DNA of 64,000 bases, from positions 809,590 to 873,589 of the forward strand of contig RPFO01000132.1 of NCBI GenBank assembly GCA_009746045.1, in the 5' to 3' direction. Each line of letters starts with the position of its first letter. Within the stretch, counting starts at the first letter, position 1. Both the position numbers and the translations under genes were made by a program. The DNA is from Mesostigma viride (Eukaryota > Streptophyta > Mesostigmatophyceae > Mesostigmatales > Mesostigmataceae). The notes below the pieces were generated by a model, which saw only the letters and a program-made list of their open reading frames with translations, was not told the origin of the DNA and made no database searches. Below, piece by piece: positions 24,337-44,648 of this stretch.

Positions 24337-24648
24337 CGAGCGAACAACCCTTGGCGGGTTCAGTTCGGACAGTCTGAGCCGGAGATATACCCAAGCTGCT
24401 TGCAGTATCAAGCACTTGGAAGAGGATTAATAAATTATCCTTTAAAAAGCTATGAAGAGGATTCGGCTTATCCTTGAAAAAGCCATGAAGAGGATTATGC
24501 TTATCCTTGAAAAAGCACTGAAGAGGTTATTGCTTAGCCTATTTGAAAAGCATGTGTGGTCCTGCCGTGGGATTTTTTTTTTCCCTATGTGATCCTCTTT
24601 TTTTTACTTTTTGGCTCTTCCCATTTTCGAGCTAAAAAGTGGGGGGGA
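24337..24648 (+). repeat. S1 internal region with 33-bp repeats and purine tract
   Basis: Non-coding. Three degenerate tandem copies of about 33 bp with core GCTTATCCTTGAAAAAGC (about 24412-24550), then T-rich sequence, then the purine tract AAAAAGTGGGGGGGA (24634-24648) directly before B1. Confidence 0.75.
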
Positions 24649-24737
24649 ATATAGTGGATCACACACAAGAGTACTCTATTGCTATGGATATGCCTTCCAA
24701 GTGATAGGCTAGGATATAATGGCACGCAAACGCGACA
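24649..24737 (+). repeat. S1 repeat B1
   Basis: 89 bp, repeated as B2 at 46604-46692. It ends GCGACA, followed by GC and then the TGTC start of A2; the junction GACAGCTGTC is a perfect palindrome. Confidence 0.9.
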
Positions 24738-24739
24738 GC

Positions 24740-25352
24740 TGTCACGTCCGTGATCATTTACGTCCGTGCACTCAAGAAGTTACGCGGTTGCCGTAATCGG
24801 AATTGTTACCGACGTTTGGTTGGTTCCGATTCAGTAGGCCGCAGGCTTTGTTCCTTGGGCCGGTGTGGAGCGCCGCGCCGGAAAGGCCTGAATTTCTAGA
24901 GTGACAGTCTTAGGTGACCTGACTTAGGTTCAGGCGCAAGACTTTGGGGCGCAAAGCCTTGGTGGCTTGCGCAATATTCCGGTGCGTGACATTTGGCAGT
25001 TACGAATCTTTTGTATTGTCCAGACGGAATGATGTTCAGTCCATCGGACAAAGCTAGATACGCAGATCGTAGTGTGCGGTGTGCTGGCTCGCACGTGGCT
25101 GTCGAACAGACTTGCTAAGCATTTTGCTGGCAGTCTAACTGCACGTCAGGCGGGTTGCTGGCAAATGCGACAGCGCATGGATGCCGGGATTTTTGGAGGT
25201 ATTTAGGAGCACGGCAGCGGCCATGGTGGTCGTTGTTCGCTCGTCGGTTACTCTCCCTCACAACTTGGTGTTGTCGTCAAGGGGTTTAATTAATAGTGGA
25301 ACAATCCGGAGCAGCCCCCGAGAGTGGTTGCAATGAGTAATTGTCATGAGAT
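24740..25352 (+). repeat. S1 repeat A2, first segment
   Basis: Second copy of A, interrupted at AGAT (25349-25352) by S2. Resumes at 43490, is interrupted again at 43534 by the gag-only copia, and ends 46214-46603. Confidence 0.9.
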
Positions 25353-26490
25353 TGTCACGGACGCGCGCTATGTCATCCGGGCGCCCACTATGCACAAGAC
25401 CGGTGACGTGCGCAAGGAATTTGTCTTCTACGCATTTTCGACAAAGGCTAGTGACCGGGGGGGGACACTAGCACTTGCAGCATAAGAGCGGACGAAAGTG
25501 TACGTGCACGCGCGCCGGGCCAGGCACAGCTGGGCGCGCAGCACTGACTTGAGCGGACGGCAGCACAAGTGTGCAGCGTCGAGAGGATCATACGCGTGTT
25601 AGTGGACAGCTGGAGCTGAAGCTGGACTGCTGGACTTCAACAGCGCCGAGGCTATTGACAGGCCAGGTGTCTTTGTGGTGTAGAATAGCGGGTCAACGTT
25701 ATGAGGACTGGACAGAAAATGGAAAAGGACAATTTGCGGTGCGGAGCCAGATCGCTGGAATGAATGCGAAATCGCTGGCAGCCCTAAAAAGGGATTTCTT
25801 CTAGAAAGGAACGATTAGACGCAATGTTTGCTGGGCCACTCACACGCAAGGTGTGAGCGTGCAGATTGTCTGAAGGATATTATGCTTCGACCTTGCTGGA
25901 CGTGACTCAATGTCGGACATTCCCAGGGACAGAAATGCCGGAGCCTCTAGGAGATGAGATCGGCAACAGGGTAGCAATTTAGATTTGTCGGGATGCCTTC
26001 CTGCTTTTGTTGGCATGTGTGGTAGAAAGCCAGGACGGCAACTGGAATGCGGTTTCTATTCGCATGGTTCAGGCAGCAAGATAGTTTTGGCATTCCTGGC
26101 TGGACTGACAAGTGTGGCGTGTGTCATGCGTGTGGCATGACGAATGGTTTGGTTCATAGTCGAAGAGGACTCTCACGCAGCGTGTAGTCTCTTCGAGTCT
26201 CTCGTTAGTGGCCTTCGTGTTTCTCCCTTTCCTTGGGAGCAAGGCCGGTAGCATGTCATGGAGCGCTGCCTAACTGCGGGCTCGTGAGCATGGAGTGCAT
26301 CGATATTGAGACTATCAACGTGTTGTAATTGTATTAACTTTCTCAATAAACTCCGCATGTGCGGCTTCATCATCAGACTGTGCAAAGTATGTGTTTTGAA
26401 AGCATTATTCTATAGCAGGGGAGGCAATAAGGTGGTTATCAGGCACGAGGGACAGTTCCTTGTCCTCGGCTGAGAGCCCTCCTTTCTTTA
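25353..26490 (+). repeat. S2 repeat A1
   Basis: 1138 bp, starts TGTCACGGACG and ends CTTTCTTTA, with AATAAA at 26345-26350. Directly after it comes CTCGAAGAGACTACC; I see no TGG-type tRNA primer site there, but an 8-bp palindrome (AGACTACC C GGTAGTCT). It matches A2 (42207-43343) almost completely. A 77-codon frame (25571-25804) recurs in A2 only because the repeat does. Confidence 0.9.
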
Positions 26491-26785
26491 CTCGAAGAGA
26501 CTACCCGGTAGTCTGCTTCCTTCTGTTCGAAGCCAAGACGTTGGCTTTAGTGTTTAGCAACCATCAGCAGTACAGGGAACGGCCTGGCTGACAGTTTGTA
26601 AAGGAAGTGTCTTGAGACAGATTTTAAGAAAATAGAACTAGCCAGAATTTGCTGGCTCTTGTCTTTTTCTGGCAGGCTAGTCGAGTCGTTATCCTTGACA
26701 CCTGTTATAAAGCCTTTGGTTGTTGCTTCTTCTCAGCGAAACCTAGGCTTGTTGGTTCTTGTTTTGCCCATCGGTCAGCTGGTGC

Positions 26786-28458
26786 ATGCCACTGACGCGA
26801 GCGCAGACTCGAGCCATGGCAGATGCAAATAGAGCAGATGCCGACACGTCCGCTCCGGGGTCGAATGGCGGGATTCCTCCCGCCGTACCCGCAGTGGGTG
26901 AGAGTCGCGACCAAGAAGCGCCGCTGAGTATGGTGGCGCTGTTCGCGCAGATGCAAGCGCAGATGCAGCAACAGTCGCAACAGTTGCAGCAGCAATTGGC
27001 GCTGCAGATGCGGGAAGTGACCGACAGATTGGTGGCCGTAGAGGGTCGTCATCTGCAGTCCACACCATGGGACGGGCAGGCATCGATGCCGGGCCCCAGT
27101 GGTGTTGCCGCGGAGCCGAGGGAGCGGGACCAGCCGCCAACCTCAGGTAATGCGGCGGGAAGGGCTTCGATGGAACCGGGGGTTTTGGCTGGGTCGCTAA
27201 CCCAACACGACTTGCTTGGTGAGGCGGATGGTCAGCCACGGGGCGAGTATACGCTGGCGCCCAGGCGCCTGCCTTTCGATCAAGCGCGAGACGGATTGCA
27301 CGAGGAGAACGGGGCAGGGCTGGCGCGCGCGATGGACCCACACAGGGGTGCACCAGGACGCATGCTGCCAGGCGGGGCCTCAATTCCGTTTGGGCGAGGC
27401 GGTGGGGCGCTGACCGGCGGGTCGACTGCACGGTGGTCAAGTGTGCCAATCGGGCGCATTCCGCCCATGGAGGACATAACCACGCCGCTGGCTTTCCGAG
27501 TACGGGAGGCAGCACGACCAAGCACGCTGGCGCAGGGACGCGCAGCTCAGCGACCGCCGGAGGATGCCGATGGGGTGCAGTACCCGCAAAGGGTGCGCCT
27601 CATACCGGAAGGCGCGAAGATGCCCACCCTACCACGGGTGGACATGCGCGAGAAGTTCTCCACAACCGGCAATCTGGCCACGCTGGCGCAGGCCTACAAC
27701 GCGTACAAGTCATGGATTGATCTGCAATACATGACTACGCAAGGCGCTGTAATGCATGAGTTTGTGATGAACAACATGCATTTTTTCTTTCACGGCCTTA
27801 CGCTGAGGCGAGTGGCTAGGCTGGTGGAGCAGTGGAGAGAGGTCTCGCTGTACACGCGTCACACGGACGTGTGGTTCGGCTTCGACGGGCGTGGCCAGCC
27901 CGACTATGACAACATCATGTATGGTGTCGACCCTGCCGAGGAACTGTGGGGCCTCCTTCGCCAGGAATACCCGGTGGAGACCATCAAGGCAGAGCGTGAG
28001 TGGCGCAGTTTCAAGATAGCCGAGGGTGAAACCCCGGAGCAATCTTACGAGCGCCTCATGGAGTTCGCCGGCGAAGTGGAGGACTGGTCCGAAAAGCTGG
28101 CGTGTCAGAAATGGCTGCAAGCGCTAGGCTCCAAGGAGATGGAGCTGCCCACGCCGCCCAACGGCCAGCCGTGGCGATTGCGGTCACTGTGCATTGAGGT
28201 CAGGGCCATGATGCGACGACACGCGCAAGGCCGGATCTCGGTAAGCACGGTGGTGGCCGAGCTGCAGGCCAAGGTCGACGCGCTGACCAAGGCCAAGTCG
28301 GGTGAGTCGTCTGCCACAAGACAAGCGCGCCCGCAAGGCGGCCACGGTGCTAGCAGGAACCAAGGGGGGTCTCGCAACGCCTCATCGCATGATGCAACCC
28401 AGGGTAACGCCGCTGGCGGCAACAAAGACGCTGCCGCCCCGACGCGAGCTGGGGGGGC
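26786..28458 (+). CDS. S2 Gag, N-terminal frame
   Basis: Start taken at the ATG at 26786 (an alternative is 26816). A Gln-rich coiled-coil stretch (MQAQMQQQSQQLQQQ, about 26950-27010) precedes a long low-complexity linker and a retrotransposon Gag capsid region (AEELWGLLRQEYPVETIKAE...EGETPEQSYERLMEFA, about 27935-28070). The frame is useful up to the G7 run at 28451-28457. Beyond it this frame loses the expected zinc knuckle, which appears one frame back. The change of frame is either a one-base error or a programmed -1 shift. Confidence 0.8.
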
Positions 28459-29310
28459 ACGTCCTCACAGACGGGTACTAGGACGGATGCGCGCAAATCG
28501 GGCTGCTTCCTTTGCGACAAGGATGGGCACCTTAGTCGCGAGTGTCCAAGCCGCTGCACGAAGCCGCATGGGGCAGACACGAAGTGGCACCTGATGAACA
28601 AGTGTCCAGCCGCGGGCATCAAGACGGTCCACTTCGCCGAGATGGCGGGCAAGACCGACTCGATGGAAGCCCAGGTGGCTGCCATCAAGCATGGTGAGGA
28701 GGCGACGGCGCCCCCCAACCAATTCGAGACGGTGTACCGGGAGGACCCATTCTGGGCGCCCATGCCGGGTGACGTCGAGATCAACGCTGCGGAGGCTACC
28801 AAAGGCAAGCAGGCACGCAGCCCGCTTTCTTTTCAGCAGGCACCCATGTTGCCTGCCGGGCAGTTGCCCGCGTCCTTTTCCATGCCGCTGGCTGGGGTGC
28901 AATCTGCTTTTGAGCATGCGAACCCTGCTGGGCTGGAGCAGCGTAGGCGATTGGCGCCTGTGTACCCAATGCCGTTCATTGTGGACGTACCCATGTTTTC
29001 AGCACGGCAGGTGGTCGACACCTTCGGGCAGAAGGGGGTTGAGTGGCTGGGGTCGGTTGTGTCCGAGATCCAGTTGTTCGCAGATGGGCATGATGTGCGC
29101 ACCTTGCGCAATTCTGAGTCCGTCACCTACGGGCGCCAGCCGGTAGAAGCCGCAGTGCCCGTGGTGCAAGCGGGAGTGGTCAGCACAAGTAGCCAGCAGC
29201 GCACTAGTGCAGTCCCCAGGTTCCCACGGTGGTTCCATACCCCAATGGTGAGCCGTCCATGGCGTTCCAAGCAGTTGGAGCCTGTGGAGATGTATGGAGC
29301 GACATGGTGA
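28459..29310 (+). CDS. S2 Gag zinc knuckle and linker frame
   Basis: In the -1 frame after the G7 run the sequence encodes a CCHC knuckle (CFLCDKDGHLSREC, about 28502-28543), then a second His/Cys stretch and about 240 residues of linker of no known family. It overlaps the pol frame by 82 bp (29229-29310); pol is again one frame back, as in elements that use -1 shifts between gag and pol. Confidence 0.7.
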   Translation, partial: TSSQTGTRTDARKSGCFLCDKDGHLSRECPSRCTKPHGADTKWHLMNKCPAAGIKTVHFAEMAGKTDSMEAQVAAIKHGEEATAPPNQFETVYREDPFWAPMPGDVEINAAEATKGKQARSPLSFQQAPMLPAGQLPASFSMPLAGVQSAFEHANPAGLEQRRRLAPVYPMPFIVDVPMFSARQVVDTFGQKGVEWLGSVVSEIQLFADGHDVRTLRNSESVTYGRQPVEAAVPVVQAGVVSTSSQQRTSAVPRFPRWFHTPMVSRPWRSKQLEPVEMYGATW

Positions 29311-32250
29311 CATGTCCGTTGGTTGGCGCAGTCAAGCTTGATAGCGGTGCTCAGCCGCTAGTCATCAGCACGGACTTGGCCACCATGCTGAACCTGACCT
29401 ACGAGAACGGTGGCTTAGTGGAAAGCCCCGTGTCTGTGTCAGGTTGGCAGGGTCCGGCTAGTAAGCCGTACGCTATGACGGCGGTTAAAGTCAACGTGAT
29501 TTTCAATCCGTTGCGCGCCTCTAGCATGACCACCGTGTCCGCGTATGCGCTGGTGGTCAACAAGTGTGGATATTCCGCACTACTCGGGGTGGATGTCCTT
29601 GCTCGCGCCATGGTTCAGGTGGACTATAGGGCGGAGGAGGCATCTTACATCCCTGATTGGGATGGGGCTGGCCTGAAGCGGGCCAGCGTGCCGGTCTCAT
29701 GCTTCAGTTCTTCAGCCGGGGCTGCACGCCTCAACCCTTCCGCGGCTGCGGGCGTGGTGGAGGTCAGCATGGTGGAGGTACGGGCGGCGGGCTCATCGGC
29801 GTGGGACAAGCATCGGACGGTGCTGCCCCAGCCAACGGCGAGCATTGCCAAGATGCGCACGCAGTGGTCGCTGGATGCTGTGACGTCCACGCGGCAGCTG
29901 GCTATGCGCAAGCGGGTAACTGAAGCCGTCATCACCATTCCTCAGATGGCCAGCCATGGCCTCACTTTGCTGCAACCGGGTGTCTCGGAGGCCCAAGGTA
30001 ATTTTTCTGCTGCAATCTTACCGCAGGCCCCTGATTTTGCCAAGGGTGCGGTAGTGTTGGAACTGTTTGCGGGGATCGGAGGGGGCATTGCAGGCTTTTT
30101 GGCCGCAGGCGGCGTGTGCCGTAAACTCATCGCGGTAGAGCCATCGCACAAGGCGCGTCAGGTGTACTTCAGTCACTGTGGCGTGTTGTCGCGAGAGTAT
30201 CCCGCGCAGTTTCCGCCATCAGCATGGCGTGACCCGTTTGGGGAATGTCCTCAAGATATCCGAGCCATCGGTGAGGTGCAGGTGCAGCAGTTGTTGCGCA
30301 GGCATCATGCCATCGACTTGGTAATTGCGGGTTGGGAGTGCCAGGGCCTGAGCCAGGCAGGGCAAGGGCGGGGGCTAGCCGATCCGCGTAGCGCGCTGTT
30401 CTGGGAACTGTTGCGTGTGGTGGGACTGTTGCAGTCGCGTCAGCCCCATCCGCCTGCGTATCTGTTTGAGAACGTTGTGGCGGGTGACAGCCCACATCAG
30501 GCGGTGCGGGAGGACTGGGCTACAATCGTGGCACTCCTGGGGGAGCCCATCGTGTGTGACAACGCAGGGCTGGGTGGGCTCACGCATCGTTTGCGTGCCT
30601 ATTGGACCAACGTGGCGTGTGCGACCGATGTGCAGGCGGTCTTGGGGGCCGTAGCAAGGCAGCATCCGAGTGTGTCTGCGGAGGTAGCATTGCCTTCCCA
30701 CCTAGTCACGCAGAAGGTGGATAGCGAGGATCGCCCACCGTATGCACGCGTCAACCGGGTCGGGAGCCCCATGTGTGCACTGCCGACCCTGGTCAGTTAC
30801 CAAGGGTCGACAGCATACCGTGATCGGGGTAAGGGTCTCGTTTGGGACACTACCACCGGTCTGTTGGTGCAGCCACCCGCAGAATTTCGTGAGGCCAGCA
30901 TGGGTTTTCATGTCGGGGCCTCGGCGCTGCCGGGCGTGCTCGAGAGTGAGCGCTGGTCTTTGATAGGCCAGGCTATGTCGGTGTTGCAGGTCGGGTATGT
31001 GCTGCTTGCATCGGTTGCCGTGCGCCAGTCTGGGGGGGCGTCCCCAGCCAATCCGCCTCAGCAGGTTGAGGCGCGCGCAGCCAAACTGAAGCGCCCTGCA
31101 GCGACGGGGACTTCATCAGCATGGGGGTGGCGTCTGCGACAGGTGTGGACTATCATTCTCATGACCGCCCTGCTGACCAGCACCGTGCTGGCCGGCGAGC
31201 CCACGCTGCATCGGGTAATACACCGTGCGGCACGCGAGGCTCCGGCGGTGGGTGTCACACCAGGCGTGGCAGCCTTTTCCTTGTTCCACGACGATGCGGC
31301 TAGGGCGCCGCATCTTGAGGCACATGCGGTAGCTGTGGGTGATCCCGCGGATACGCACCCCTGGGCTATTGGCGAACACCTTTCTGATGCGCAGCGCTCA
31401 GCCATGCTAAAGTGGCTAGGCACTGCAAGGGGGGCCTTCGCTTTCACAAGTGATGAACTGGGGTGTTTCAATGGTGGGACCATGCGTGTTCCATTGGACA
31501 CTGACACCCCTTTGTTCCGACGCCAGCATCGCCTGAGTCAGGCCGAGTTGGATTTTGTAGCCGAGCAATGCAAGGAGTTAGAGGATGCCGGTATCATCAG
31601 GCAATCTTCCTCCAGCTATGCCGCTGCCGTTGTCGTTGCGCCCAAGAAGGACGCTATCACCGGGGCATGGACGGGTATGCGCATGGCCACCGATCTGCGG
31701 TTGCTGAATGCACACACACCCGTGGACCGTTACCCCATGCCACGTGTGGATGATGTCCTGGATAAGATATCTCCTCATGTGAAGTTTGTGTCCTCGCTGG
31801 ACCTGCGTAGCGGCTTTCATCAGATCGCAGTTGCGCCGGAGGATCAGCGGAAGCTTGCATTCTGGGGGGGCGGCAATTTGTATGAGTGGGTGCGCATGCC
31901 CTTTGGGCACCGCAACGCTAGTGCTGTTTTCCAACGAGCTATGGACAAAGTGCTTGCAGGTCTTCCTTTCGCCGCTTGTTACATTGATGATGTAATCGTC
32001 TTTAGCGCGACATTTGAGGAGCACCTGGCGCACTTGGAGCAGGTTCGCTTGGCTCTCGAGGAGCATAATATGCGGCTGCACCCTGAGAAGTGCAAGTTCG
32101 CCCAGCGGACCCTCTCATTCCTTGGTCATCAGATTGTGCCGGGTGGCCGGACGCCTGATGCCGCCAAGGTCGAATCCATTGTGCAGGCCGCCGTACCCAC
32201 GGATGTCTCAGGGGTGCGGGCGTATTTGGGTTTGGCTGGCTATTACCGAG
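29229..32250 (+). CDS. S2 Pol, N-terminal part: protease, cytosine-5 DNA methyltransferase, RT
   Basis: Residues counted from 29229. Aspartic protease: VKLDSGAQPLVIS (catalytic Asp 38) and ALLGVDVL. Cytosine-5 methyltransferase, about 270-590: motif I FAGIGGG (280-286, cofactor binding), motif IV WECQGLSQAG (nucleophile Cys 371, Glu where Pro is usual), motif VI LFENV (Glu 414), motif VIII HRLRAYW (453-459), a short target-recognition stretch, motif IX EFREASMGF (552-560) and motif X-like SLIGQAMSV. A hydrophobic segment (VWTIILMTALLTSTVLA, about 639-656) follows. RT starts near 760, with LDLRSGFHQI and catalytic YIDDVIVFS near 917, and reaches GYYR, where a DNA transposon interrupts it. The codons rejoin exactly at 39654. 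Confidence 0.93.
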
Positions 32251-32364
32251 CCCTAAGCTCGTCTGGATTTGTACTAGAACACTACTACAAATTGAGATTT
32301 TTCAAACTTTGTTATTTAGGGCCTCTCGTAAGTCCAAAGCATGTAGGTTATTGTCCCAACATGT

Positions 32365-33115
32365 TGTGACACCGTGACACCGTGACACCGTGACACCGTG
32401 ACACCGTGACACCATAACGCTAGTATTTTACGATTTTGTATGGTGTCACAAGGTAATGTGGCGCCCATGGGGTTGCAACAATGATATTACATTGCCCAGA
32501 AGCACTGATTAACATGAGGTGACATTGTGACACCGTGACACCGTGACACCGTGACACGATGGCACCATAACGCTAGTATTTTACGATTTTGTATGGTGTC
32601 ACAAGGTAATGTGGCGCCCATGGGGTTGCAACAATGATATTACATTGCCCAGAAGCACTGATTAACATGAGGTGACATTGTGACACCGTGACACCGTGAC
32701 ACCGTGACACCGTGACACCGTGACACCGTGACACCGTGACACGATGGCACCATAACGCTAGTATTTTACGATTTTGTATGGTGTCACAAGGTAATGTGGC
32801 GCCCATGGGGTTGCAACAATGATATTACATTGCCCAGAAGCACTGATTAACATGAGGTGACATTGTGACACCGTGACACCGTGACACCGTGACACCGTGA
32901 CACCGTGACACCGTGACACCGTGACACCGTGACACGATGGCACCATAACGCTAGTATTTTACGATTTTGTATGGTGTCACAAGGTAATGTGGCGCCCATG
33001 GGGTTGCAACAATGATATTACATTGCCCAGAAGCACTGATTAACATGAGGTGACATTGTGACACCGTGACATCGTGACATTGTGACACCGTGACAGCATG
33101 ATAGTGACAATATGA
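32365..33115. repeat. Left octamer array with 145-bp higher-order unit
   Basis: Runs of GTGACACC alternate with a unit of about 145 bp (CATAACGCTAGTATTTTACG marks each, at about 32413, 32566, 32752 and 32945). The octamer runs grow from about 3 to 9 copies. Open frames here are by-products of the 8-bp period. Confidence 0.95.
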
Positions 33116-33811
33116 CACGATAGCACTAGCATTTCATGATTTTGTTGTTTAGTGCCACAAAGTATTAACGCAACATTAATGTATTATGCAACCATGTATA
33201 AATAAAAGAAAATTTATGAATATGATGGATGACCAATAATCCCTATTACATGGCCTAGCAAACTTGCATCTGCCAACTGTGTCTCTCTGCCTCTTTAATA
33301 TCAAATGCAAGATAAAATAATGTATAAATTAGCTTAAACTTACCTGACAATGATTTGCATACAGCTTTCTTTAATGCAGAATCTGGTGCCAAGCAAATGC
33401 CGTATCAAAACCATACATGCCCAATCTAATATGAACCATAATAATCGTGTTGCCCCGACTCGTCTACATCTTGCGAGTAGGGTGGCCTTTTCCGCGGTGG
33501 AGCCTGGGCATGTGCCTGGTTGTGGGGCCGGCCGGACGTGGGCGTTGTAGGCCCACGTCCCTTGCTCATCAAAATGACTATGACCCATGAAATGAGAATC
33601 CCTGGCTGCATAACCTCCTCCCTCATCACTCATCACAGTGATGTTGCCAGTCTTGCTCCCCGGCGGCCTTGGGGATTTGGGGCCTCGGCTTTGTCTTCCT
33701 TGGAGATCTCCTTAGAGGGGGGGCTGCGGCATAACGGTAAGTGCCGTCATTGTAATGCTGCACGGGCTCAGGGTTCTCAACGTAGGTGGTTTGTTGCAAT
33801 GTGCCGCGACC
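33116..33811. other. Unassigned segment of the DNA transposon
   Basis: AT-rich at 33116-33340. On the minus strand 33636-33340 there is a short frame (GGGYAARDSHFMGHSHF...) that could be an exon downstream of 33812-34429; this is unproven. Confidence 0.3.
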
Positions 33812-34429
33812 TCAAGGCTGATGTGTATCAGCTGCCGACCCTTCGCCAGGCTGTGGATCGTACATGCCGGCATGGTATACATAAGCATTGGCCGCTTGCC
33901 TGCCAGCGGCAGTAGGCTGGGCATGCATTCCTTGGTCGTACGGCGCGTACACACCGTGCTCGCCGTACGGTTCCCCCTCCCGATCCAGCTGCCTCGGCCC
34001 ATCCATTGCGACTGCGCGCGCGCGTGGCTCTTGTTGACGGTGTGCTGGTTGCAGTCCTGTCACTTGGCCATGGGCCGCGCTGAAGCTTTCGCGTTGCCCC
34101 AACGCGGCAGGCGCAGCGGGCCGGCGAAGCTCCGTGCCAACGCCAGTGCTGGAGCTGGGTGCAGCACTTGCTGGGGTGGATGGCATTCTTCGTTGGTTCT
34201 CCAAAGCATTGACCCTCTCGGTCAGGGCCTTAACCTTGACGTACACGTGCGATTTCTTATTCCCCCGCCCTTCATCACCTACGGGTGTCCCCGCATCAAC
34301 TGCGCTCTCAGTCTCCTCCCCCGTTGGCCGTGCTACGCCCGTTCCATCGTCATGCTCCGCACACAACGGTCTGAAAGTGCCAAAAAACAGCCTTATAACT
34401 CCTGTACGATGCAAATATTGTCGAAACAT
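33812..34429 (-). CDS. Unrecognised protein with short coiled coil
   Basis: 205 codons inside the DNA transposon. A heptad-like helix (VYVKVKALTERVNALENQRR) is followed by a Pro/Ala/Gly-rich, Tyr- and His-containing tail. There is no nuclease or zinc-finger signature. It may be an accessory protein of the transposon or a captured piece. The first 20 or so residues look non-coding, so the start is doubtful. Confidence 0.4.
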   Translation of the reverse strand: MFRQYLHRTGVIRLFFGTFRPLCAEHDDGTGVARPTGEETESAVDAGTPVGDEGRGNKKSHVYVKVKALTERVNALENQRRMPSTPASAAPSSSTGVGTELRRPAAPAALGQRESFSAAHGQVTGLQPAHRQQEPRARAVAMDGPRQLDREGEPYGEHGVYAPYDQGMHAQPTAAGRQAANAYVYHAGMYDPQPGEGSAADTHQP

Positions 34430-34639
34430 GCTAGATCTTGGTAGGTAGCATGTTCAGGACACCAGTAGAAGGATTGCAACTTTCCGGACTTACCGGACCT
34501 CAGCTGACCTATTTTTGGCATTTCTATTTTTAGCAGTTTTCCAGATTTTAATATAAACAAATACATTCTAATATGCAAATAAAGAGTTCTTGACCTGGCT
34601 GTTTGCAAGTAAGTTGATACTCATGACTAATGACTGTAC

Positions 34640-35165
34640 ACAAGATCTGATGGTCATCCAACCGCATTTGGTAACAAAATGCCACCAAATGCTAGCAAAA
34701 ATGTGCGTTTTTTGTATTTTTCATCACATTTCATTGCAGTTTCCATACAAGCTGTGCTCGGTTGAGGCTGGAAACTTGTAGGCATCTTAAACATCATTAT
34801 TCTAGACATCCCACAAAAATTCAGGTCCATCATAGGGTATTTGATGTCAGTTTGCTCACAAATGTTACCAAAAATGCACGTTTTTCGTATTTTTCATCAC
34901 ATTCCATGGCAGTTTCCATACAAGATGTGCTCAGTTCAGGCTGGAAACTTGCATGCATCTTTGCCATCATTATTTTAGACATTCCACAAAAATTCAGAAC
35001 CATCAGAGGGTATTTGATGTCAGTTTGCTCACAAATGTTACCAAAAATGCACGTTTTTCGTATTTTTCATCACATTTCAGTGCAGTTTCCGTACAAGATG
35101 TGCTCTGTTGAGGCTGGAAACTTGCATGCATCTTAGCCATCATGATTTTAGACATTCCACAAAAA
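34640..35165. repeat. 173-bp tandem repeat, about 3 copies
   Basis: The marker AAAATGTGCG/AAAATGCACG recurs at 34698, 34871 and 35044, giving a period of 173 bp. Flanks are diverged. Frames in it (for example 34762-35136) are repeat by-products. Confidence 0.85.
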
Positions 35166-35775
35166 TTCAGGCCGATCATGTTCTATTTGGTAGAGCTATC
35201 AATGCCATACCTGCCAGTTTCCATTACAAATTCTTACCCATGGATGCGAAACTGCCAGTGTGGAATATCAAGGAGACAATCTGGTCAACTCAAATAAGAT
35301 GACTCACTAAAACATGGAAACCATTCACGAGTGATGTAAGACAACCCGTCCAGGAGACATACATAAAAGTTCATTGATATAGACACAGCTGACAATATGC
35401 ACATGTGGCCATGTGGATGCTCACGCAATTTCTATTATAGGGAGGAGCTTGCTGAACATAATATTGGCAGCTGTCGCATGCATGGCTAGAAAGGTCATTT
35501 TACACGTGCACCCACAGCATGCCAAGTAATGTAGTTGCAAATTACTCAACACGCGGCATGGCGCTGATGCGTTTGCGCGCCCTCATCTCGGTATCGCTAG
35601 CTAGGAGGTAGTGGCACCTCCCTGCACAATCTCTGCCTGACCTTGTCAGCCTTCATGCACTGTGTCAACATGGACACCCCCACACCCTTGCCCTTGGCAT
35701 CACAGCCAAGCTTTCGACGGTGGTTGGTGAAGCTCTTGGTGTCCTCCTTGCGCATGTGGTGCATGTGCAAGTTAC
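35166..35775. other. Sequence between satellite arrays
   Basis: No gene recognised. The end (35600-35760) borders the GTGA array. Confidence 0.4.
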
Positions 35776-35927
35776 TAAGTGAGTGAGTGAGTGAGTGAGT
35801 GAGTGAGTGAGTGAGTGAGTGAGTGAGTGAGTGAGTGAGTGAGTGAGTGAGTGAGTGAGTGAGTGAGTGAGTGAGTGAGTGAGTGAGTGAGTGAGTGAGT
35901 GAGTGCGTGCGTGCGTGCGTGCGTGAG

Positions 35928-35975
<48 letters not shown>

Positions 35976-37175
35976 TGAGTGGGTGGGTGGGTGGGTGGGT
36001 GGGTGGGTGGGTGGGTGGGTGGGTGGGTGGGTGGGTGGGTGGGTGGGTGGGTGGGTGGGTGGGTGGGTGGGTGGGTGGGTGGGTGGGTGGGTGGGTGGGT
36101 GGGTGGGTGGGTGGGTGGGTGGGTGGGTGGGTGGGTGGGTGGGTGGGTGGGTGGGTGGGTGGGTGGGTGGGTGGGTGGGTGGGTGGGTGGGTGGGTGGGT
36201 GGGTGGGTGGGTGGGTGGGTGGGTGGGTGGGTGGGTGGGTGGGTGGGTGGGTGGGTGGGTGGGTGGGTGGGTGGGTGGGTGGGTGGGTGGGTGGGTGGGT
36301 GGGTGGGTGGGTGGGTGGGTGGGTGGGTGGGTGGGTGGGTGGGTGGGTGGGTGGGTGGGTGGGTGGGTGGGTGGGTGGGTGGGTGGGTGGGTGGGTGGGT
36401 GGGTGGGTGGGTGGGTGAGGGAGTGAGTCCACGAGTGAGTGAGTCCACGAGTGAGTTCACGAGGGAGGAAGGGAGGGAGGGAGGGAGGGAGGGAGGGAGG
36501 GAGGGAGGGAGGGAGGGAGGAGGGAGGGAGGGAGGAGGGAGGGAGGGAGGGAGGGAGGGAGGGAGGGAGGGAGGGAGGAGGGAGGGAGGGAGGGAGGAGG
36601 GAGGGAGGAGGGAGGGAGGGAGGGAGGGAGGAGGGAGGGAGGGAGGGAGGGAGGGAGGGAGGGAGGGAGGGAGGGGAGGGAGGGAGGGAGGGAGGGAGGG
36701 AGGGAGGGAGGGAGGGAGGGAGGGGAGGGAGGAGGGAGGGAGGGAGGGAGGGAGGGAGGAGGGAGGGAGGGAGGGAGGAGGGAGGGAGGGAGGGAGGGAG
36801 GGAGGGAGGGAGGGAGGAGGGAGGGAGGGAGGGAGGGAGGAGGGAGGGAGGGAGGGAGGGAGGGAGGGAGGGAGGGAGGGAGGGAGGGAGGGAGGGAGGA
36901 GGGAGGGAGGGAGGGAGGGAGGGAGGGAGGAGGGAGGGAGGGAGGGAGGGAGGGAGGGAGGGAGGAGGGAGGAGGAGGGAGGGAGGGAGGGAGGGAGGGA
37001 GGGAGGAGGGAGGGAGGGAGGGAGGGAGGAGGGAGGAGGGAGGGAGGGAGGGAGGGAGGGAGGAGGGAGGGAGGAGGGAGGGAGGGAGGGAGGGAGGGAG
37101 GGAGGGAGGGAGGGAGGGAGGGAGGGAGGGAGGGAGGGAGGGAGGGAGGGAGGGAGGGAGGGAGGGAGGGAGGAA
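35776..37175. repeat. Giant tetranucleotide microsatellite block: GTGA, GTGC, GGGT, GGGA
   Basis: Four arrays in succession: (GTGA)n about 35778-35905, (GTGC)n about 35906-35976, (GGGT)n about 35978-36416, a short mixed spacer, then (GGGA)n with interspersed GGA about 36463-37175. All are G-rich on the plus strand. Long frames on both strands (for example repeated THPP, SLPP or GGWV) arise from the repeat and are not genes. Confidence 0.97.
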
Positions 37176-38135
37176 GGGAGTGGATCGGTCACTCACAGCA
37201 GTTTATTCCCACCCCAGCAGGGCCCCTCCCTCACATCCGGCTGCAAAATCTGCTTGATGTCGCTTCTCTCTAGAATAAGCCGCACAGCCCTGATGCGAGC
37301 AAACGGCTCGCCATCATACTGTCGCTCACTGATGCTTTATACGCGCTTTCCGTAAGATGAAAACATGACGGAAAAGAGAGACTCGGGGAAAGGGGATACG
37401 GTGAAATACTTGTCTGCTACCGGCCGGGGTTTCAACAGCGAAGAAATTCGCACCTGAATGTGCACATACCACTCCGTCACGTCGACAACGGTCTTGCATC
37501 GCAATCGTTTCACAGACGCGGCAGCAAAAATTGCTGGCGGCATTGACATGCTCGCCGCAGTTAACGAACGTGCGGAGGTCCGTTTTAGCCCCTGACGCCA
37601 CGGCGTCTTTGATGCCAAGAACGCCTGCAAAAGACACGATATCGGGCACAAAAGCACTTAAAAACGGATTACGGGTCTGCGACGCCTGGCCCAGCCTAGA
37701 AATTGGATTAAAAATCGCGCCAGCTCGGTTAAAGCAAACTGAGCCGGTAATGAAAAAAGTGCTTCGGTCAAGGCCTTAAAAACTAAAAACTGCGTCGGTT
37801 AGAGTCAAAAACCAGATGTTAGGGCGACTTTCATCGGGAAAATTTTTTGCTGCAGGTAGGTGGGGTCGAGAGAAAATCGGCGACAAAACAGGCACCCACC
37901 TGTGAATGACGCCAAAATGGAAGGACTCCGCAGAATTTGTGGCGAAAAAAAATAACGGCAAGTAATATATGACCCTAGGAGCATACACTAAAATTTCCAG
38001 CCTCGATACTGCCTTTTTATTCGCTAGCCATTCTTAGCTATCCTGACCAGAATGGCCGATGAATGGTTGATAATTTCCTCGGGGATTGAAAGGAAATACC
38101 TGCTGCACACCTTGTGACATCGGTTGTGACACCCA
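37176..38135. other. Unassigned segment of the DNA transposon
   Basis: A minus-strand frame at 37649-37326 (SFAGVLGIKDAVASGAKTDL..., with CCRVCETIAMQDRC) looks more protein-like than its surroundings but matches nothing I know. Otherwise no feature. Confidence 0.3.
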
Positions 38136-38420
38136 TGTCTCAACATGTTTGTAGTTGGTTTGTAGTTGGTGTCTCGGTGTCTCAGAAACTCGTGGTCCGC
38201 ATTGAGTGGGTGTCACGGTGTCACGACATCTGATTGGCCCGGTTCAGATTCGCCCCAAATTAAAAAAAAAAAAAAACGAATTAAAAAAAAATTAAAAAAA
38301 AAACGAATCTGAACCGGGCCAATCAGATGTCGTGACACCGTGACACCCACTCAATGCGGACCACGAGTTTCTGAGACACCGAGACACCAACTACAAACCA
38401 ACTACAAACATGTTGAGACA
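38136..38420. repeat. Large perfect palindrome
   Basis: Arms of 117 bp (38136-38252 and 38304-38420), essentially perfect, around an A-rich 51-bp centre with poly-A runs. The arms contain GGTGTCACGGTGTCAC in the left arm and its complement in the right. Confidence 0.92.
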
Positions 38421-38636
38421 CCGTGACACCGTGCGCTTTCACCCCGAATTCACGAGAGCGGCAGCGATGGTGATCGCTGCCAAATGAGGTAACATGGGCT
38501 AAACAACTCGGGCAGACCGGGCTGGCGTGACATCCCGGTCTGCCATGTTTTATTCCCCCCCACACATGGCGTGGGGATCTACGTTTGCCATCTGCCAACG
38601 TAGAAATAGATGGGGAGGGGGGGGGACAAATGATGT

Positions 38637-39041
38637 TTGCAACATTGCCCAGTTGACATAGCCATGGCGAGACCCGGCGTTTTCATGGAGCCCAGTGCGG
38701 GGGCGCTGGGTTGGCAGGTTTTGGGAATGTTCTTCTTGCTATTACTCCTGGGCGTCGTCGTGTTCAATATGATGGCGAGGCGCGGGGTCCGGTTATCTGC
38801 AGCCGCCGTGTTGGCGAAATGCACCCAGGATTCGTCCTTGGCTGCGGCACTTTGCAGGGACTGGGACTGTGGTTGTGGCCGCCATTGTTTGAGAAGCGTG
38901 CATTTCGAGGAGCTCAGGACGATGAGGACCGACATGTGGTCTAAGAAGCCTGCGGATCGGAAAGAGTTTATAAAGAACCAGCTTTTTCAGGCCGGCCAGG
39001 GAGAAACTGAAATCCCGGCAAGTGATTTCATGACAAAGTGA
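38637..39041 (+). CDS. Small membrane-segment protein with Cys/His motif
   Basis: 134 codons; an ATG at 38664 is an alternative start. A transmembrane-like helix (VLGMFFLLLLLGVVVFNMM) lies in the N-terminal third. C-terminally there is CGCGRHCLRSVHFEELRTM, then a basic Trp-containing stretch ending KEFIKNQLFQA. The Cys-to-helix pattern resembles short N-terminal segments of several eukaryotic transposases, so it may be a transposase exon of the host element. No splice sites are proven. Confidence 0.4.
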   Translation: MQHCPVDIAMARPGVFMEPSAGALGWQVLGMFFLLLLLGVVVFNMMARRGVRLSAAAVLAKCTQDSSLAAALCRDWDCGCGRHCLRSVHFEELRTMRTDMWSKKPADRKEFIKNQLFQAGQGETEIPASDFMTK

Positions 39042-39319
39042 TTTTGATGGTTGCTTGCATGCATATTAAGTGAGACAGCTATTCCTGGACGCATGGCGTG
39101 CCAACATATATAAGTTGTTACCAGATATTAATCACATGCCCTATTGAAGCGACGTTGGACCGCATAAACGAGGAATGGCTGAACTTGTCATGACCCGGCA
39201 AGGTACCTACACGCACAACAAGAATACATCAACATGAGACGATATATGGTGAGATGACCGAGATGTATGGAGAAATGAATGTCTCTACTAGGATTATTAT
39301 GAAGGTGTATACGTGGTAT

Positions 39320-39535
39320 TTGCGGTGTCACGGTGTCACGGTGTCACGGTGTCACGGTGTCACGGTGTCACGGTGTCACGGTGTCACGGTGTCAGAAGCA
39401 TAGGTAAAACTTGCAATGACCCATTGAATACATCATCCCCATTAATAATCACTGCATACCTGCAAAGATGTGTGTTTATATGCATTTTGAGGTGTCACGG
39501 TGTCACGGTGTCACGATGTCACGGTGTCACGGGTC
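39320..39535. repeat. Right octamer arrays (GGTGTCAC)
   Basis: Two runs of GGTGTCAC (39325-39394 and about 39491-39531) in the orientation opposite to the left arrays, near the right terminal repeat. Confidence 0.95.
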
Positions 39536-39653
39536 CTATGAACTTCCCCTTCCTCAGAGACTTAAGTGGAAACTTTAAATTCAATAAAATACAACTTTTC
39601 AAAATGAACTACAAATTGCGTGTTCTAGTACAAATCCAGACGAGCTTAGGGGA

Positions 39654-42035
39654 GGTTACATTGAGAACTTCAGCAGCAAGGTGAAGCCCTTGACCGAGTT
39701 ACTCAAGAAGGGGTGCGTGTGGGCGTGGGGTCCCGCACAGCAACGCGCCATCGAGACAATCAAGCAGGAGCTCACGTCGGCCCCGATTCTGCGCGCCCCT
39801 GACTATGCTTTGCCGTTTGTGTTATATACCGACTGGTCCAAGGTAGGACTGGGTGCGGTCTTGGCGCAAAAGGATGGTGATGGGCGCGAGCACGTTATTG
39901 CTTATGCTAGTCGCAGCAACAACCCAGCGGAGAGCCGGTATTCTTCCTATGAGGGGGAGGCACTGGCTGTGGTGTGGGCCATCAAGCACTTTCGCCCGTA
40001 TTTAGTTGGGCGCGTGTTTACTCTGGTGACAGACCACCAGCCGCTTCAGTGGCTAATGACCAACACCAACCTGACGGGTAAGCTCGCCCGATGGGCCATG
40101 ATTATCCAGGAGTACCACATGACCATTGTGCATCGGGCCGGCAAGGACCATGTCAACGCCGATGTGCTATCCCGATACGCCATGCCTACCACTGTTGACC
40201 ACACTGGAGCCCGGGCCATGGGTGCCGAGGGCTCGTCGGGTTCTGTGGTCTTTGTGAACGCTGCTGGGTATGCGGCCGACGATGAGGAGGAGGCGTGGTG
40301 GCGCAGTGTCGAGTACTCTGTGGCGGACTTCGGCATCAGCGACGACCCGGTGCGGCCGTCGCCATTCACGCCATCCAAAGCTGTGTGCGCTATGGAAGAG
40401 GGTAGGTCTCTGTCCTTTGACATTGATCCTTCTCTGCAGCAGCTGATCGCTGTGCAGGCTCTCTTAGCGCGTAGCTCTCTTGCTGATTGCTACACCGCTG
40501 ATATCTGGCTAGATGGTCGAGTTTTGGAGCAAGTGCAGGGTGCTGTCTTGACTCCTACTCCAGTCGATTGGACTCCTGCTCAGAAGGCGACGGAGTTGAA
40601 CAGGGTGCAGCACAGGGCTGCAACCTATGGTTGGGAAGATGGGGTTTTGTACAAGCTGTTGGGCAAGCGTAGGGTGGTCGTCCCACCGCCTGACAAGCGC
40701 GTTGCTATAGTGCAGGCGTACCACGAGCGGTATGGTCACTTGGGTGGCAATCGCACGCTCAGCCTCGTACGGACCAGCTATTGGTGGAATAACATGCGAC
40801 ACACAGTGGCCCAGGTAGTGGCCAGCTGTGTCCCGTGTGCTCGAACCAAGGCTAACTTTAGCGCAGATCATGGTGCCAAGGAGCTGATGTCGCTTCCCAT
40901 CAAGGGCTTGTTTTATCGCTGGCACGTCGATCTGTGCGGGCCGTTTCAGGAGAGCCCTGACGGCAACCTCTATGTCATGGTATGCGTGGAGAGCTTTAGC
41001 AAATGGGTTGAGTTGATCCCCATTGCTGACAAGCATGCCGCTACCACAGCGAAGCATTTTGCAGACATCATCACCAGGTTTGGGGCTCCCGCGGAGGTAG
41101 TCACGGACCAGGGTGGTGAGTTCAGGGGTGAGTTCCAGGAGTTGCTGGATGGATGTCTTATTGATCACCGTCGCACTTCTCGGGAGCATCCTCAGGCCAA
41201 TGGTTTGGCTGAGAGATTGGTGCAGACCGTCAAGCAGGCGCTGCGCAAGTGGAGCCTGCAGGTGCCGGAGTCGGCCAGGTGGGATCGCGAGTTGGCATGG
41301 ATTGCCATGGGTTATCGCATGTCTCCCCAGGAGTCTCTCGCTACCTTCTCCCCGTATTTCCTTCTGTTCGGGCGTAATCCTCTTTTGCCTACGGAGGCAC
41401 AGGTTGCGCACCCCGAACCCATGGCCTTCGACAACGCTCAGCAATTTTTGGTTGAGGTGCTGGCCAGGGCAGAGACTTTTAAGAAGGTCATGCCCATCGC
41501 GATGAACAACTTGTTCATTGCTCAGCACAGGGACTCCCTGCGTTACGCTCAGCGCCGGGGGGGCGCATACATGGCTCGCCAGCTGCGGTTTAGGCCAGGG
41601 CAGTATGTTTTCCTGCGCACTCAGCTGAAGCACACTTTGGATGTGGAGGCGGGGCCCACCATTTTGCGCATTGTGGCTATCAAACCATCGGGAGTGGCAA
41701 TTTTGGAGGGCGCCGACGGGAGCCGTACGACAGACAACCTCAGCAATCTCAGTCCCTGCTCACTGCCCAATTTGGTCCACGACCTCCAACCGCACACATC
41801 TCGCCGAGTCAAGGACGCCCAGTGTCAGGTTTGTCACCGGGTCGATCAGGCGGAGTCCATGTTATTGTGTGATCAGTGTAACTGTGGTTGGCACATGCAG
41901 TGCTTGCAGCCAGTGGTCACCAGCATTCCGGAGGGGGATTGGTTTTGTCCAGTGTGCACCGCTGCGCAGTTTACCTCCCGCAGCTTGACTGCGGTCACCG
42001 CTGCCCTTGTCTTGGTACGATCGCTGTCTTCGTGA
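39654..42035 (+). CDS. S2 Pol, C-terminal part: RNase H, integrase, PHD finger
   Basis: Continues RT after the insertion. RNase H: LPFVLYTDWSKVGLGAVLAQ, SSYEGEALAVVWAI, VTDHQPLQWL, DVLSRY. Integrase: HHCC zinc region (HERYGHLGG, CVPCARTK), core with Asp in WHVDLCGPF, Asp in VVTDQGGEF and Glu in NGLAERLVQTVK, then a DNA-binding domain. At the C-terminus is a C4HC3 PHD finger (41823-41964): CQVC, CDQC, GWHMQC, FCPVC with correct spacing and the Trp before the last Cys pair. Chromoviruses carry a chromodomain in this place. PHD fingers bind histone H3 tails, so a role in choosing insertion sites is a reasonable inference. Confidence 0.92.
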   Translation, partial: GYIENFSSKVKPLTELLKKGCVWAWGPAQQRAIETIKQELTSAPILRAPDYALPFVLYTDWSKVGLGAVLAQKDGDGREHVIAYASRSNNPAESRYSSYEGEALAVVWAIKHFRPYLVGRVFTLVTDHQPLQWLMTNTNLTGKLARWAMIIQEYHMTIVHRAGKDHVNADVLSRYAMPTTVDHTGARAMGAEGSSGSVVFVNAAGYAADDEEEAWWRSVEYSVADFGISDDPVRPSPFTPSKAVCAMEEGRSLSFDIDPSLQQLIAVQALLARSSLADCYTADIWLDGRVLEQVQGAVLTPTPVDWTPAQKATELNRVQHRAATYGWEDGVLYKLLGKRRVVVPPPDKRVAIVQAYHERYGHLGGNRTLSLVRTSYWWNNMRHTVAQVVASCVPCARTKANFSADHGAKELMSLPIKGLFYRWHVDLCGPFQESPDGNLYVMVCVESFSKWVELIPIADKHAATTAKHFADIITRFGAPAEVVTDQGGEFRGEFQELLDGCLIDHRRTSREHPQANGLAERLVQTVKQALRKWSLQVPESARWDRELAWIAMGYRMSPQESLATFSPYFLLFGRNPLLPTEAQVAHPEPMAFDNAQQFLVEVLARAETFKKVMPIAMNNLFIAQHRDSLRYAQRRGGAYMARQLRFRPGQYVFLRTQLKHTLDVEAGPTILRIVAIKPSGVAILEGADGSRTTDNLSNLSPCSLPNLVHDLQPHTSRRVKDAQCQVCHRVDQAESMLLCDQCNCGWHMQCLQPVVTSIPEGDWFCPVCTAAQFTSRSLTAVTAALVLVRSLSS

Positions 42036-42062
42036 TGGGGCCGGTCGCCAGCGAGGGGGGGA
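42036..42062 (+). other. Purine tract of S2
   Basis: GCGAGGGGGGGA (42051-42062) ends exactly where B1 begins, in the position of a plus-strand primer. Confidence 0.75.
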
Positions 42063-42204
42063 ATCATGGGACAGGTCCTCGCCCACCCCACAGGGCATGC
42101 AGTTAAGGCAGGCACATCAGCTCAGCTCATTTGGGTTTTACCAAATTAAGCTGAGTGGCCAGCCGCCATGGTGGCGCCGGAGATTGTGGCACGCAGACGC
42201 GACA
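42063..42204 (+). repeat. S2 repeat B1
   Basis: 142 bp, repeated exactly in length as B2. Ends GCGACA, followed by GC and the TGTC start of A2; same palindromic junction as in S1. Confidence 0.92.
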
Positions 42205-42206
42205 GC

Positions 42207-43343
42207 TGTCACGGACGCGCGCTATGTCATCCGGGCGCCCACTATGCACAAGACCGGTGACGTGCGCAAGGAATTTGTCTTCTACGCATTTTCGACAAAG
42301 GCTAGTGACCGGGGGGGACACTAGCACTTGCAGCATAAGAGCGGACGAAAGTGTACGTGCACGCGCGCCGGGCCAGGCACAGCTGGGCGCGCAGCACTGA
42401 CTTGAGCGGACGGCAGCACAAGTGTGCAGCGTCGAGAGGATCATACGCGTGTTAGTGGACAGCTGGAGCTGAAGCTGGACTGCTGGACTTCAACAGCGCC
42501 GAGGCTATTGACAGGCCAGGTGTCTTTGTGGTGTAGAATAGCGGGTCAACGTTATGAGGACTGGACAGAAAATGGAAAAGGACAATTTGCGGTGCGGAGC
42601 CAGATCGCTGGAATGAATGCGAAATCGCTGGCAGCCCTAAAAAGGGATTTCTTCTAGAAAGGAACGATTAGACGCAATGTTTGCTGGGCCACTCACACGC
42701 AAGGTGTGAGCGTGCAGATTGTCTGAAGGATATTATGCTTCGACCTTGCTGGACGTGACTCAATGTCGGACATTCCCAGGGACAGAAATGCCGGAGCCTC
42801 TAGGAGATGAGATCGGCAACAGGGTAGCAATTTAGATTTGTCGGGATGCCTTCCTGCTTTTGTTGGCATGTGTGGTAGAAAGCCAGGACGGCAACTGGAA
42901 TGCGGTTTCTATTTGCATGGTTCAGGCAGCAAGATAGTTTTGGCATTCCTGGCTGGACTGACAAGTGTGGCGTGTGTCATGCGTGTGGCATGACGAATGG
43001 TTTGGTTCATAGTCGAAGAGGACTCTCACGCAGCGTGTAGTCTCTTCGAGTCTCTCGTTAGTGGCCTTCGTGTTTCTCCCTTTCCTTGGGAGCAAGGCCG
43101 GTAGCATGTCATGGAGCGCTGCCTAACTGCGGGCTCGTGAGCATGGAGTGCATCGATATTGAGACTATCAACGTGTTGTAATTGTATAAACTTTCTCAAT
43201 AAACTCCGCATGTGCGGCTTCATCATCAGACTGTGCAAAGTATGTGTTTTGAAAGCATTATTCTATAGCAGGGGAGGCAATAAGGTGGTTATCAGGCACG
43301 AGGGACAGTTCCTTGTCCTCGGCTGAGAGCCCTCCTTTCTTTA
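42207..43343 (+). repeat. S2 repeat A2
   Basis: 1137 bp, nearly identical to A1 (25353-26490). AATAAA at 43198-43203. Confidence 0.92.
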
Positions 43344-43485
43344 ATCATGGGACAGGTCCTCGCCCACCCCACAGGGCATGCAGTTAAGGCAGGCACATCA
43401 GCTCAGCTCATTTGGGTTTTACCAAATTAAGCTGAGTGGCCAGCCGCCATGGTGGCGCCGGAGATTGTGGCACGCAGACGCGACA
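43344..43485 (+). repeat. S2 repeat B2
   Basis: 142 bp copy of B1. Its end, GCGACA, is the right end of S2, directly followed by the duplication AGAT (43486-43489). Confidence 0.92.
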
Positions 43486-43534
43486 AGATTGGTTGACGGA
43501 AGTGATAACTGTTTGGTTTCGTCAAGATGATGTG

Positions 43535-44169
43535 TGTCAGAATGTTTGGTACTTTTTCTGCTGTTCGTCTTACCGGCAATATTTTCAGTTCATTTTGACA
43601 AAGTCCGATGTAGTATAAATCGGCATTAAATATATTTCCATCGGTGTTTGCTGACATCCGTACCGTACCTAGTGGTACTGTAGCCGCCTGACAAAATTTG
43701 CCTGGATCCGCGCTTTGCGCCGACCCTATGTCCACTAAGTGCTGCCCTGGAGGCGCAATGTCTTTGTACTTGCATACTAGTGACCCGACGCATCATTTTA
43801 GTGTTGATGTAAGCCACCCACCTGTGTGTGGCGGCTGGATGCACTCTAACTTATACCGTAGATCATTTCCAGATCGACGGATACTGTGACAGTGTGTTTT
43901 TCCACTTAATGTTGCCCCTGCAAATTTCATGGCTACCGAGTTGGTCGGCTGAGCCACAGTCTCATTAAGGCGTGACAGCCTAGTTGGCTGGTTGTTATTA
44001 ATGCCGAGTTGGCATCTGTTTATTGCCTAGTTGGCATCTTGCCTAGTTGGCCTCTGTTTACCCAAACACCTAGTTGGTGTCACCTCTTATTATTAATACA
44101 AACGAGACTGATTACAAAGGTCCAAGATCTTCCTCCAATACGCACACTTTTTATATGCAGTTTTCAACA
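43535..44169 (+). repeat. 5' LTR of gag-only copia
   Basis: Starts TGTCAGAATG, ends TTCAACA. Contains five or so copies of a CTAGTTGGC-type short repeat near 44015-44085. Confidence 0.93.
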
Positions 44170-44178
44170 TGGTATCGG

Positions 44179-44606: not shown

Positions 44607-44648
44607 CTTTTTCACAGTACGCCAGCTTTCTTCTCAATCGTCTTTTCA

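Follow-up and report, generated by a model that had tools for sequence, protein, structure and literature searches.

The locus described here raises the question of how a retrotransposon can carry a DDE integrase and a short target site duplication (TSD) and yet have its terminal repeats arranged in the order A1-internal-B1-A2-B2, which is the order described for the tyrosine-recombinase retrotransposons PAT and Ngaro (PMC4157794; PMC3783388; these and the other papers cited are drawn upon in part). The element, S2, lies within a stretch of 64,000 nucleotides of the Mesostigma viride genome (assembly GCA_009746045.1, contig RPFO01000132.1, positions 809,590 to 873,589 of the forward strand), referred to throughout as the window, and coordinates are positions in the window unless a contig handle is given. 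With a probability of roughly 0.86, S2 is a Ty3/gypsy-type long terminal repeat (LTR) retrotransposon in which the integrase attachment site has shifted into the LTR, the ends of the complementary DNA (cDNA) being joined and the cut being made internally. The parts of S2 on which this reading depends are the following.

25353-43485: S2 as a whole, A1-internal-B1-GC-A2-B2, with an AGAT target duplication on both sides
25349-25352, + strand: left copy of the AGAT target duplication
25353-26489, + strand: repeat A1, 1137 bp, the base that follows (A) being shared
26184-26198, + strand: stretch of A1 to which the primer site is exactly complementary; probably the 5' end of the RNA, acting as self-primer
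26490-26504, + strand: primer binding site adjoining A1
42055-42061, + strand: G7 purine tract adjoining B1; proposed plus-strand priming site
42062-42204, + strand: repeat B1
42201-42210, no strand: palindrome GACAGCTGTC, containing the GC linker; proposed integrase cut site
42205-42206: GC linker between B1 and A2
42207-43342, + strand: repeat A2
43343-43485, + strand: repeat B2; the A2/B2 border is the proposed end-to-end joint of the cDNA
43486-43489, + strand: right copy of the AGAT target duplication

An earlier, sequence-only reading of the window had placed A1 alone at the left end of S2 and B1-GC-A2-B2 at the right, and the repeat borders bear this out; its length of 1138 bp for A1 holds if the shared base is counted, A1 proper being one base shorter. 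The element begins with TGTC and ends with GACA, A2 differs from A1 by two substitutions and one gap, and B1 and B2 are identical (143/143). The claim that the AGAT duplication sets the outer limits is confirmed by an empty site in the same window, as the A1 repeat of a second element, X, crosses the target uninterrupted with one AGAT (23297-23949). Two copies of the palindrome GACAGCTGTC are present in the window, one at the B-GC-A junction of S2 and one at that of X, compared with a mean of 0.14 in 100 shuffles, two of which held two copies. S2 has the split order A1-B1A2B2 of PAT and Ngaro and lacks what defines an ordinary LTR element, namely identical LTRs at both ends with the primer site and purine tract adjoining the integrated LTRs; in S2 the primer site adjoins A1, whereas the tract adjoins B1. 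The layout is real and, being found in further copies, is no one-off.

S2 is itself nested in X (23297-46692), a second element of the form A1-internal-B1-GC-A2-B2, which is flanked by GGTG on both sides and consists of the following parts.

23297-24335, + strand: X repeat A1, preceded by GGTG at 23293-23296; carries the S2 empty site
24336-24647, + strand: X internal region, 312 bp, with a primer site at 24336-24348 complementary to 23789-23801 and G7 at 24641-24647
24648-24737, + strand: X repeat B1, followed by GC at 24738-24739
24740-25352, continuing at 43490-43534 and 46214-46602, + strand: X repeat A2, split by S2 and by a further element, E3
46603-46692, + strand: X repeat B2, followed by GGTG at 46693-46696

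No convincing similarity between X and S2 was found by blastn in A or in the internal sequence, while the final 26 bp of their B repeats match at 22 of 26 positions. X was probably mobilised by an S2-like integrase.

The signals for reverse transcription are placed alike in both elements. The 15 nt directly 3' of A1 in S2 are exactly complementary to 26184-26198 within A1, and in X a stretch of 15 nt, 13 of them past the A border, is complementary to 23789-23803 of its own A1. Such matches are rare: against the A repeat of S2, one of 4664 other window positions reaches 15 nt and five reach 13, and against that of X none of 4668 positions reaches 13. Both elements therefore have a self-complementary primer site adjoining the 5' repeat, as in the self-primed elements Tf1 and Sushi, where the primer site is complementary to an upstream stretch of the 5' repeat (PMC4600332; PMC6317226). 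Pairing at the primer site dominates the predicted leader folds: in S2 the pairs reach probabilities of at least 0.96 at 13 of the 15 positions, the remaining two having 0.61 and 0.48, and in X at 11 of 15, the remaining four having 0.34, 0.43, 0.76 and 0.81. A G7 tract stands directly 5' of B1 in S2 and in X, there being 14 + strand G-runs of at least 7 in the window. The ordinary elements E3 and C1, also in the window, have TGGTATC and TGATATC, respectively, after the left LTR and purine tracts adjoining the right LTR, and their self-complementarity is just 6 and 7 nt; a tRNA primer was rejected, as A1 has no TGG-type site, unlike E3 and C1. With the primer site at A1 and G7 at B1, the general scheme of reverse transcription would give a cDNA whose LTR is B-GC-A. 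This agrees with the B-A terminal repeat that had been deduced from the purine tract, and the ends of S2-family cDNA should differ from the integrated ends, which are A-start and B-end.

If such cDNA ends were joined, the A2/B2 border is predicted to be the place where the primer-site border meets the G7 border, and this could be followed through the copies in the 440-Mb assembly that contains the window. Exact matches in the assembly number 216 for the G7/B border, 237 for B-GC-A and 73 for the A/B joint, with none for reversed-pattern controls. The right ends were read in the 40 best-scoring internal ends (S2 and 39 others), of which 25 have B-GC-A-B, three B-GC-A followed by other sequence (L068, L081, L088), one is a tandem and four pass from B into flank, the remaining seven being unreadable owing to gaps and contig ends. 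Left ends (n = 40) comprise 34 of flank/A, two of B-GC-A-internal (the tandem C111 and the heterodimer C133) and four in which A is absent or truncated (L099, L105, L113, L130). Forty scored A copies, which overlap both samples, fall into flank/A/internal (24), B-GC/A/B (12), B-GC/A/internal (2), flank/A/B (1) and B-GC/A/X-family B (1). Among the first 100 of the 216 G7/B sites, 74 continue as exact B-GC-A and 26 do not; five of these 26 are B/flank (L061, L074, L082, L085, L155), and the others comprise a contig end, the part of L081 that is rearranged, and sites left unread.

Both ends were read at 33 loci of the S2 family, counting S2 itself, and 30 of these have 4-bp duplications; L056, L150 and L153 were matched by eye. 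Loci of which one end is absent, truncated or rearranged (L069, L075, L078, L081, L087, L092, L160 and L166, among others) are outside this count; the left ends of L059, L061, L067, L068, L074 and L089 lie outside the sample, and 17 of 34 stretches taken at guessed positions held no feature of the S2 or X family, so that several ends are unread. The same 33 loci comprise 27 of the form A-internal-B-GC-A-B, three A-internal-B copies (L082, TSD GCAT, with a deletion within A; L085, CGCG; L155, AACC), one tandem dimer (C111, CAAT), one heterodimer and one solo A-B (L024, AGCT). Whether every copy is of the S2 form with a 4-bp TSD had been posed as a check; this holds for most of the 33, the exceptions being the other forms just listed and three loci without a TSD. 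Copies with ordinary LTR pairs, which would have marked S2 as a rearrangement, were not found among the 33 readable of the 40 best-scoring right ends.

The A2/B2 joint is exact at 19 of the 25 B-GC-A-B right ends and scarred at six, with one base added in L058, one changed in L064, two or three lost in L067, one lost in each of L075 and L086, and an X-family B inserted in inverse orientation in L055 (88/89 nt). Seven further loci have exact joints (L150, L151, L153, L158, L159, L161, L165), and in L157 about 120 nt of A are gone. At L068 (C1106:7208164-7209924) the joint holds 13 nt of the primer site, and then, at the right end of the copy, a 98-nt B of a third family, which ends GGCACGCAAACGCGACA and of which the last 19 nt match the B of X and the rest neither B; more families thus share the attachment site. 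L081 has an inverted A end together with the same 13 nt (46/46 nt), the scars of L068 and L081 both holding the complement of 26186-26198, and the joint of L024 holds 8 nt of the primer site. The recurrence of 13 nt at joints suggests a self-primer of that length. In L160 (C1613:2674072-2676072) A2 halts at position 836, near the self-primer, and is followed by unassigned sequence; this may be a partial cDNA that was joined on.

The order in the heterodimer C133 is GGGG, X-like A-internal-B-GC-A, S2 B-GC-A-internal-B-GC-A, X-family B, GGGG. Both of its joints are exact. In the first, AATCATGG of S2 follows directly on the X-like A end ACATTATTTA, whose border is the one found in front of the X-like primer site; in the second, AATATAGTGG of X follows on the A end of S2. 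The terminal B is identical to that of X (90/90). The S2 part has the complete layout predicted for the cDNA, with B-GC-A at each end, and the observed insertion results from cutting once, at the X-like site on the left. No other simple origin of such an arrangement is known to us. The A2/B2 scars and C133 are hard to explain other than by the joining of cDNA ends.

The following course of events would account for these structures. Transcription would run from within A1 to within A2, and the 5' end of the RNA, through the complementarity seen, may fold onto the site adjoining A1 and prime the minus strand in the manner of Tf1, with the plus strand being primed at the G7 before B1. The linear cDNA would then have an LTR of B-GC-A, starting with AATC and ending with CTTTCTTT. 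Ligation of its two ends, or of the ends of two cDNAs, would create the A/B joints whose scars are seen in the genome, and the joined form could be circular or a linear concatemer, or a B fragment could have been ligated. Integrase would cut the palindrome CA^GC^TG in the left LTR with loss of GC, and A-start and B-end would be inserted with a 4-bp duplication to give A-internal-B-GC-A-B. The A-internal-B copies may come from a cut one-LTR circle, or from linear cDNA cut at both sites. The sequence-only reading had proposed a two-LTR circle opened at B-GC-A; the joined ends are supported by the scars and by C133, and one product expected of such a circle is missing.

That product is the first of several points that weigh against the mechanism. 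As a two-LTR circle has two identical cut sites, the mirror isomer A-B-GC-A-internal-B should be expected equally often, and it was seen at none of the 40 left ends and at none of 42 exact A/B joints (26 placed by exact-match coordinates and 16 by reading; at most 39 separate insertions, as three have flanks in common with others). L176, L178 and L189 have right flanks in common with L083, L077 and L076, respectively. One might speculate that the left LTR is the first to become double-stranded and is cut at an early stage. The three loci without a TSD are L064, L070 and L080; L080, whose right flank is that of L071, probably represents the same insertion assembled twice. C133, on a contig of 40 kb, could have been misassembled, against which stand its two exact joints and its matching TSD; the X-like part is of a variant kind, A being matched over positions 1-585 alone, at 94%. 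L081 is rearranged and close to a contig end. In addition the copy samples are best-scoring hits and hence non-random, and the assembly includes duplicated haplotypes.

The coding region of S2 is divided as follows.

26759-28594, + strand: ORF1, in the gag position, without Pfam match
28594-29310, + strand: ORF2, without Pfam match
29229-32250, + strand: pol part 1, with a weak aspartic protease match, C5 cytosine methylase and reverse transcriptase
39655-42035, + strand: pol part 2, with RNase H, H2C2 zinc domain, DDE (rve) integrase and C-terminal PHD finger

The closest solved matches of both pol open reading frames (ORFs) are Ty3 proteins, with Ty3 and prototype foamy virus (PFV) integrase for the integrase itself, and the order reverse transcriptase-RNase H-integrase with Ty3-like domains is that of Ty3/gypsy elements; the aspartic protease match falls under the Pfam cut-off. 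The integrase had been called canonical, and its rve domain, its triad (D417, D476 and E511 of the second pol ORF, as read from the alignment) and the short fixed TSD of the family agree with this. The methylase retains FAGIGGG, a cysteine within ECQG, and FENV, which we take to be its functional motifs, ECQG presumably standing where PCQ is usual. The PHD finger (41823-41957) is at the C-terminus of the integrase, where it may have a role in target choice. Chromoviruses have a chromodomain, their mark, at this position, and Tf1-type elements have ordinary LTRs. In S2, unlike Tf1 and Sushi, a PHD finger was found instead, with no Chromo match in the five S2 ORFs profiled.

The alternative that survives best is that the cut precedes the ligation, the left LTR of a linear cDNA being cut and the freed B attached by host end joining to the A at the right, of the same or of another cDNA, so that no closed circle is needed. 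The inverted X-family B in L055 and the third-family B in L068 fit free B fragments, and an early cut limited to the left LTR suits the absence of the mirror isomer. However, the B that comes next is that of the same family in 25 of the 28 sampled loci whose A2 is not followed by internal sequence (in L055 after the insert), so that attachment would need to be mainly in cis, and the full X-like element in C133 is explained by a two-cDNA circle with no third molecule. We regard this order of events as possible, but hold it only tentatively.

A closure of the DIRS/PAT kind, in which B1-A2 serves as an internal template joining B2 to A1 in a circle and a DDE integrase has replaced the tyrosine recombinase, would explain the order of repeats shared with PAT and Ngaro, and a relative in Klebsormidium nitens is described as DIRS-like in layout (PMC5890265). 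However, it leaves unexplained why the A repeat of two families stops at a self-complementary primer site and the B repeat follows directly on G7, as well as the scars and foreign B repeats at A2/B2, and no tyrosine recombinase match was found in the 12 S2 ORFs of at least 150 aa that were scanned, which are part of the S2 ORFs; we consider it highly improbable. A tyrosine-recombinase element as such was rejected on the rve integrase and the same negative scan, and an ordinary LTR element with a deletion because the layout is common to two families and many copies. There is next to no chance that S2 is an ordinary element rearranged in this one copy or misassembled, since X and 25 of 40 sampled right ends have the identical layout and TSDs are found at 30 of 33 loci, even though near-identical repeats at a right end are a common assembly trouble spot and this assembly has gaps and duplicates.

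The K. nitens relative, KnitGypsy-Dnmt3 (de Mendoza et al., 2018; PMC5890265), has a gypsy pol with an inserted cytosine methyltransferase, and its repeats are said in the legend of Fig. 4 to have the structure of DIRS elements. S2 likewise has a gypsy pol with a DNA_methylase match, which holds the three motifs given above, and a DIRS-like order of repeats. For KnitGypsy-Dnmt3 a primer site, purine tract, cut site, TSD and mechanism are absent from the available text. That paper alone was found on KnitGypsy, and among titles and abstract openings on split repeats, two-LTR circles, self-priming and end joining, with few subscription papers covered, none was recognised as proposing the present mechanism. 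As far as these partial sources go, the layout had been noted in one published legend and no published proposal of the mechanism was found.

S2 shares its repeat order with PAT and Ngaro, unlike which it has a DDE integrase, a 4-bp TSD, a primer site, a purine tract, a GC linker and joining scars, and it shares with Tf1 and Sushi the self-complementary primer site. The integrases of PFV and human immunodeficiency virus type 1 are reported to cut palindromic LTR-LTR circle junctions (PMC1180852; PMC1905944), likewise between CA and TG, and the two nucleotides lost between junction and provirus in the 2005 PFV model (PMC1180852) resemble the GC lost in S2. For spleen necrosis virus a circle junction was proposed in 1984, linear DNA being later shown to be the active retroviral form (PMC11054761). 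Unlike in retroviruses, the palindrome is within every LTR copy of S2, and the cDNA ends, as reconstructed, would have no integrase sites. Two tblastn protein scans of viral contigs gave no relative, and a plasmid tblastn scan gave three weak reverse transcriptase matches; 11 + 2 contigs (L001-L013) with short pattern matches gave no hit by blastn with X and both S2 ends, and were taken as chance.

Two further insertions have altered S2 and X.

32251-39651, no strand: nested DNA transposon, 7.4 kb, terminal inverted repeats CCCTAAGCTCGTCTGG, TSD GAG
43535-46208, + strand: E3, ordinary LTR element nested in X, LTRs TGTCAG...CAACA, primer site TGGTATC, 5-bp TSD ATGTG

The transposon interrupts pol between the reverse transcriptase and RNase H, and this copy of S2 is therefore broken. 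That the gap is a native part of S2 was rejected, since inverted ends and a duplicated GAG mark it as an insertion; elsewhere in the assembly three pairs of A copies are spaced 9450 apart, compared with 16854 in S2, as expected without it. Near its ends are 8-bp arrays (GTGACACC)n in inverse orientation, and it also holds a 1.4-kb simple repeat of GGGA/AGTG type and a palindrome with 117-bp arms (38136-38420); its two scanned ORFs of at least 150 aa are without Pfam match. In L099 (C1402:202651-204280) sequence resembling the transposon end, by eye, stands directly 5' of the last A bases and primer site. E3 has one gag-like ORF (44649-45533), with no match above the Pfam cut-off, and a Copia-like element lies at 1025-8025 (LTRs 2872-3648 and 6539-7313) beside inverted copies of its own sequence. 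The nested transposon, the enclosing element X and the self-complementary primer site at A1 go beyond the sequence-only reading, which was also made without knowledge of the 2018 legend on KnitGypsy-Dnmt3.

Whether DNA with joined ends, that is circular DNA, is a precursor of integration was an early question of retrovirology, and in retroviruses it was settled for linear DNA (PMC11054761). The S2 family appears to use joined ends with a cut site in every LTR, and the idea thereby becomes directly testable. The family also offers one explanation of how split direct repeats arise where a tyrosine recombinase is lacking, and the layout alone is not diagnostic of a DIRS-type element. Full-length copies of the S2 family retain the joint of the cDNA ends and sometimes part of the copied self-primer. 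We think it likely that this is a natural lineage, with autonomous and non-autonomous members, which would be unable to integrate from linear cDNA ends, so that end joining, within or between cDNAs, would be obligatory and followed by a cut at the pre-fused attachment site in the LTR; the circle-junction pathway of 1984 would then exist in nature, and the A2/B2 joints would be a genome-wide fossil record of the joining of cDNA ends.

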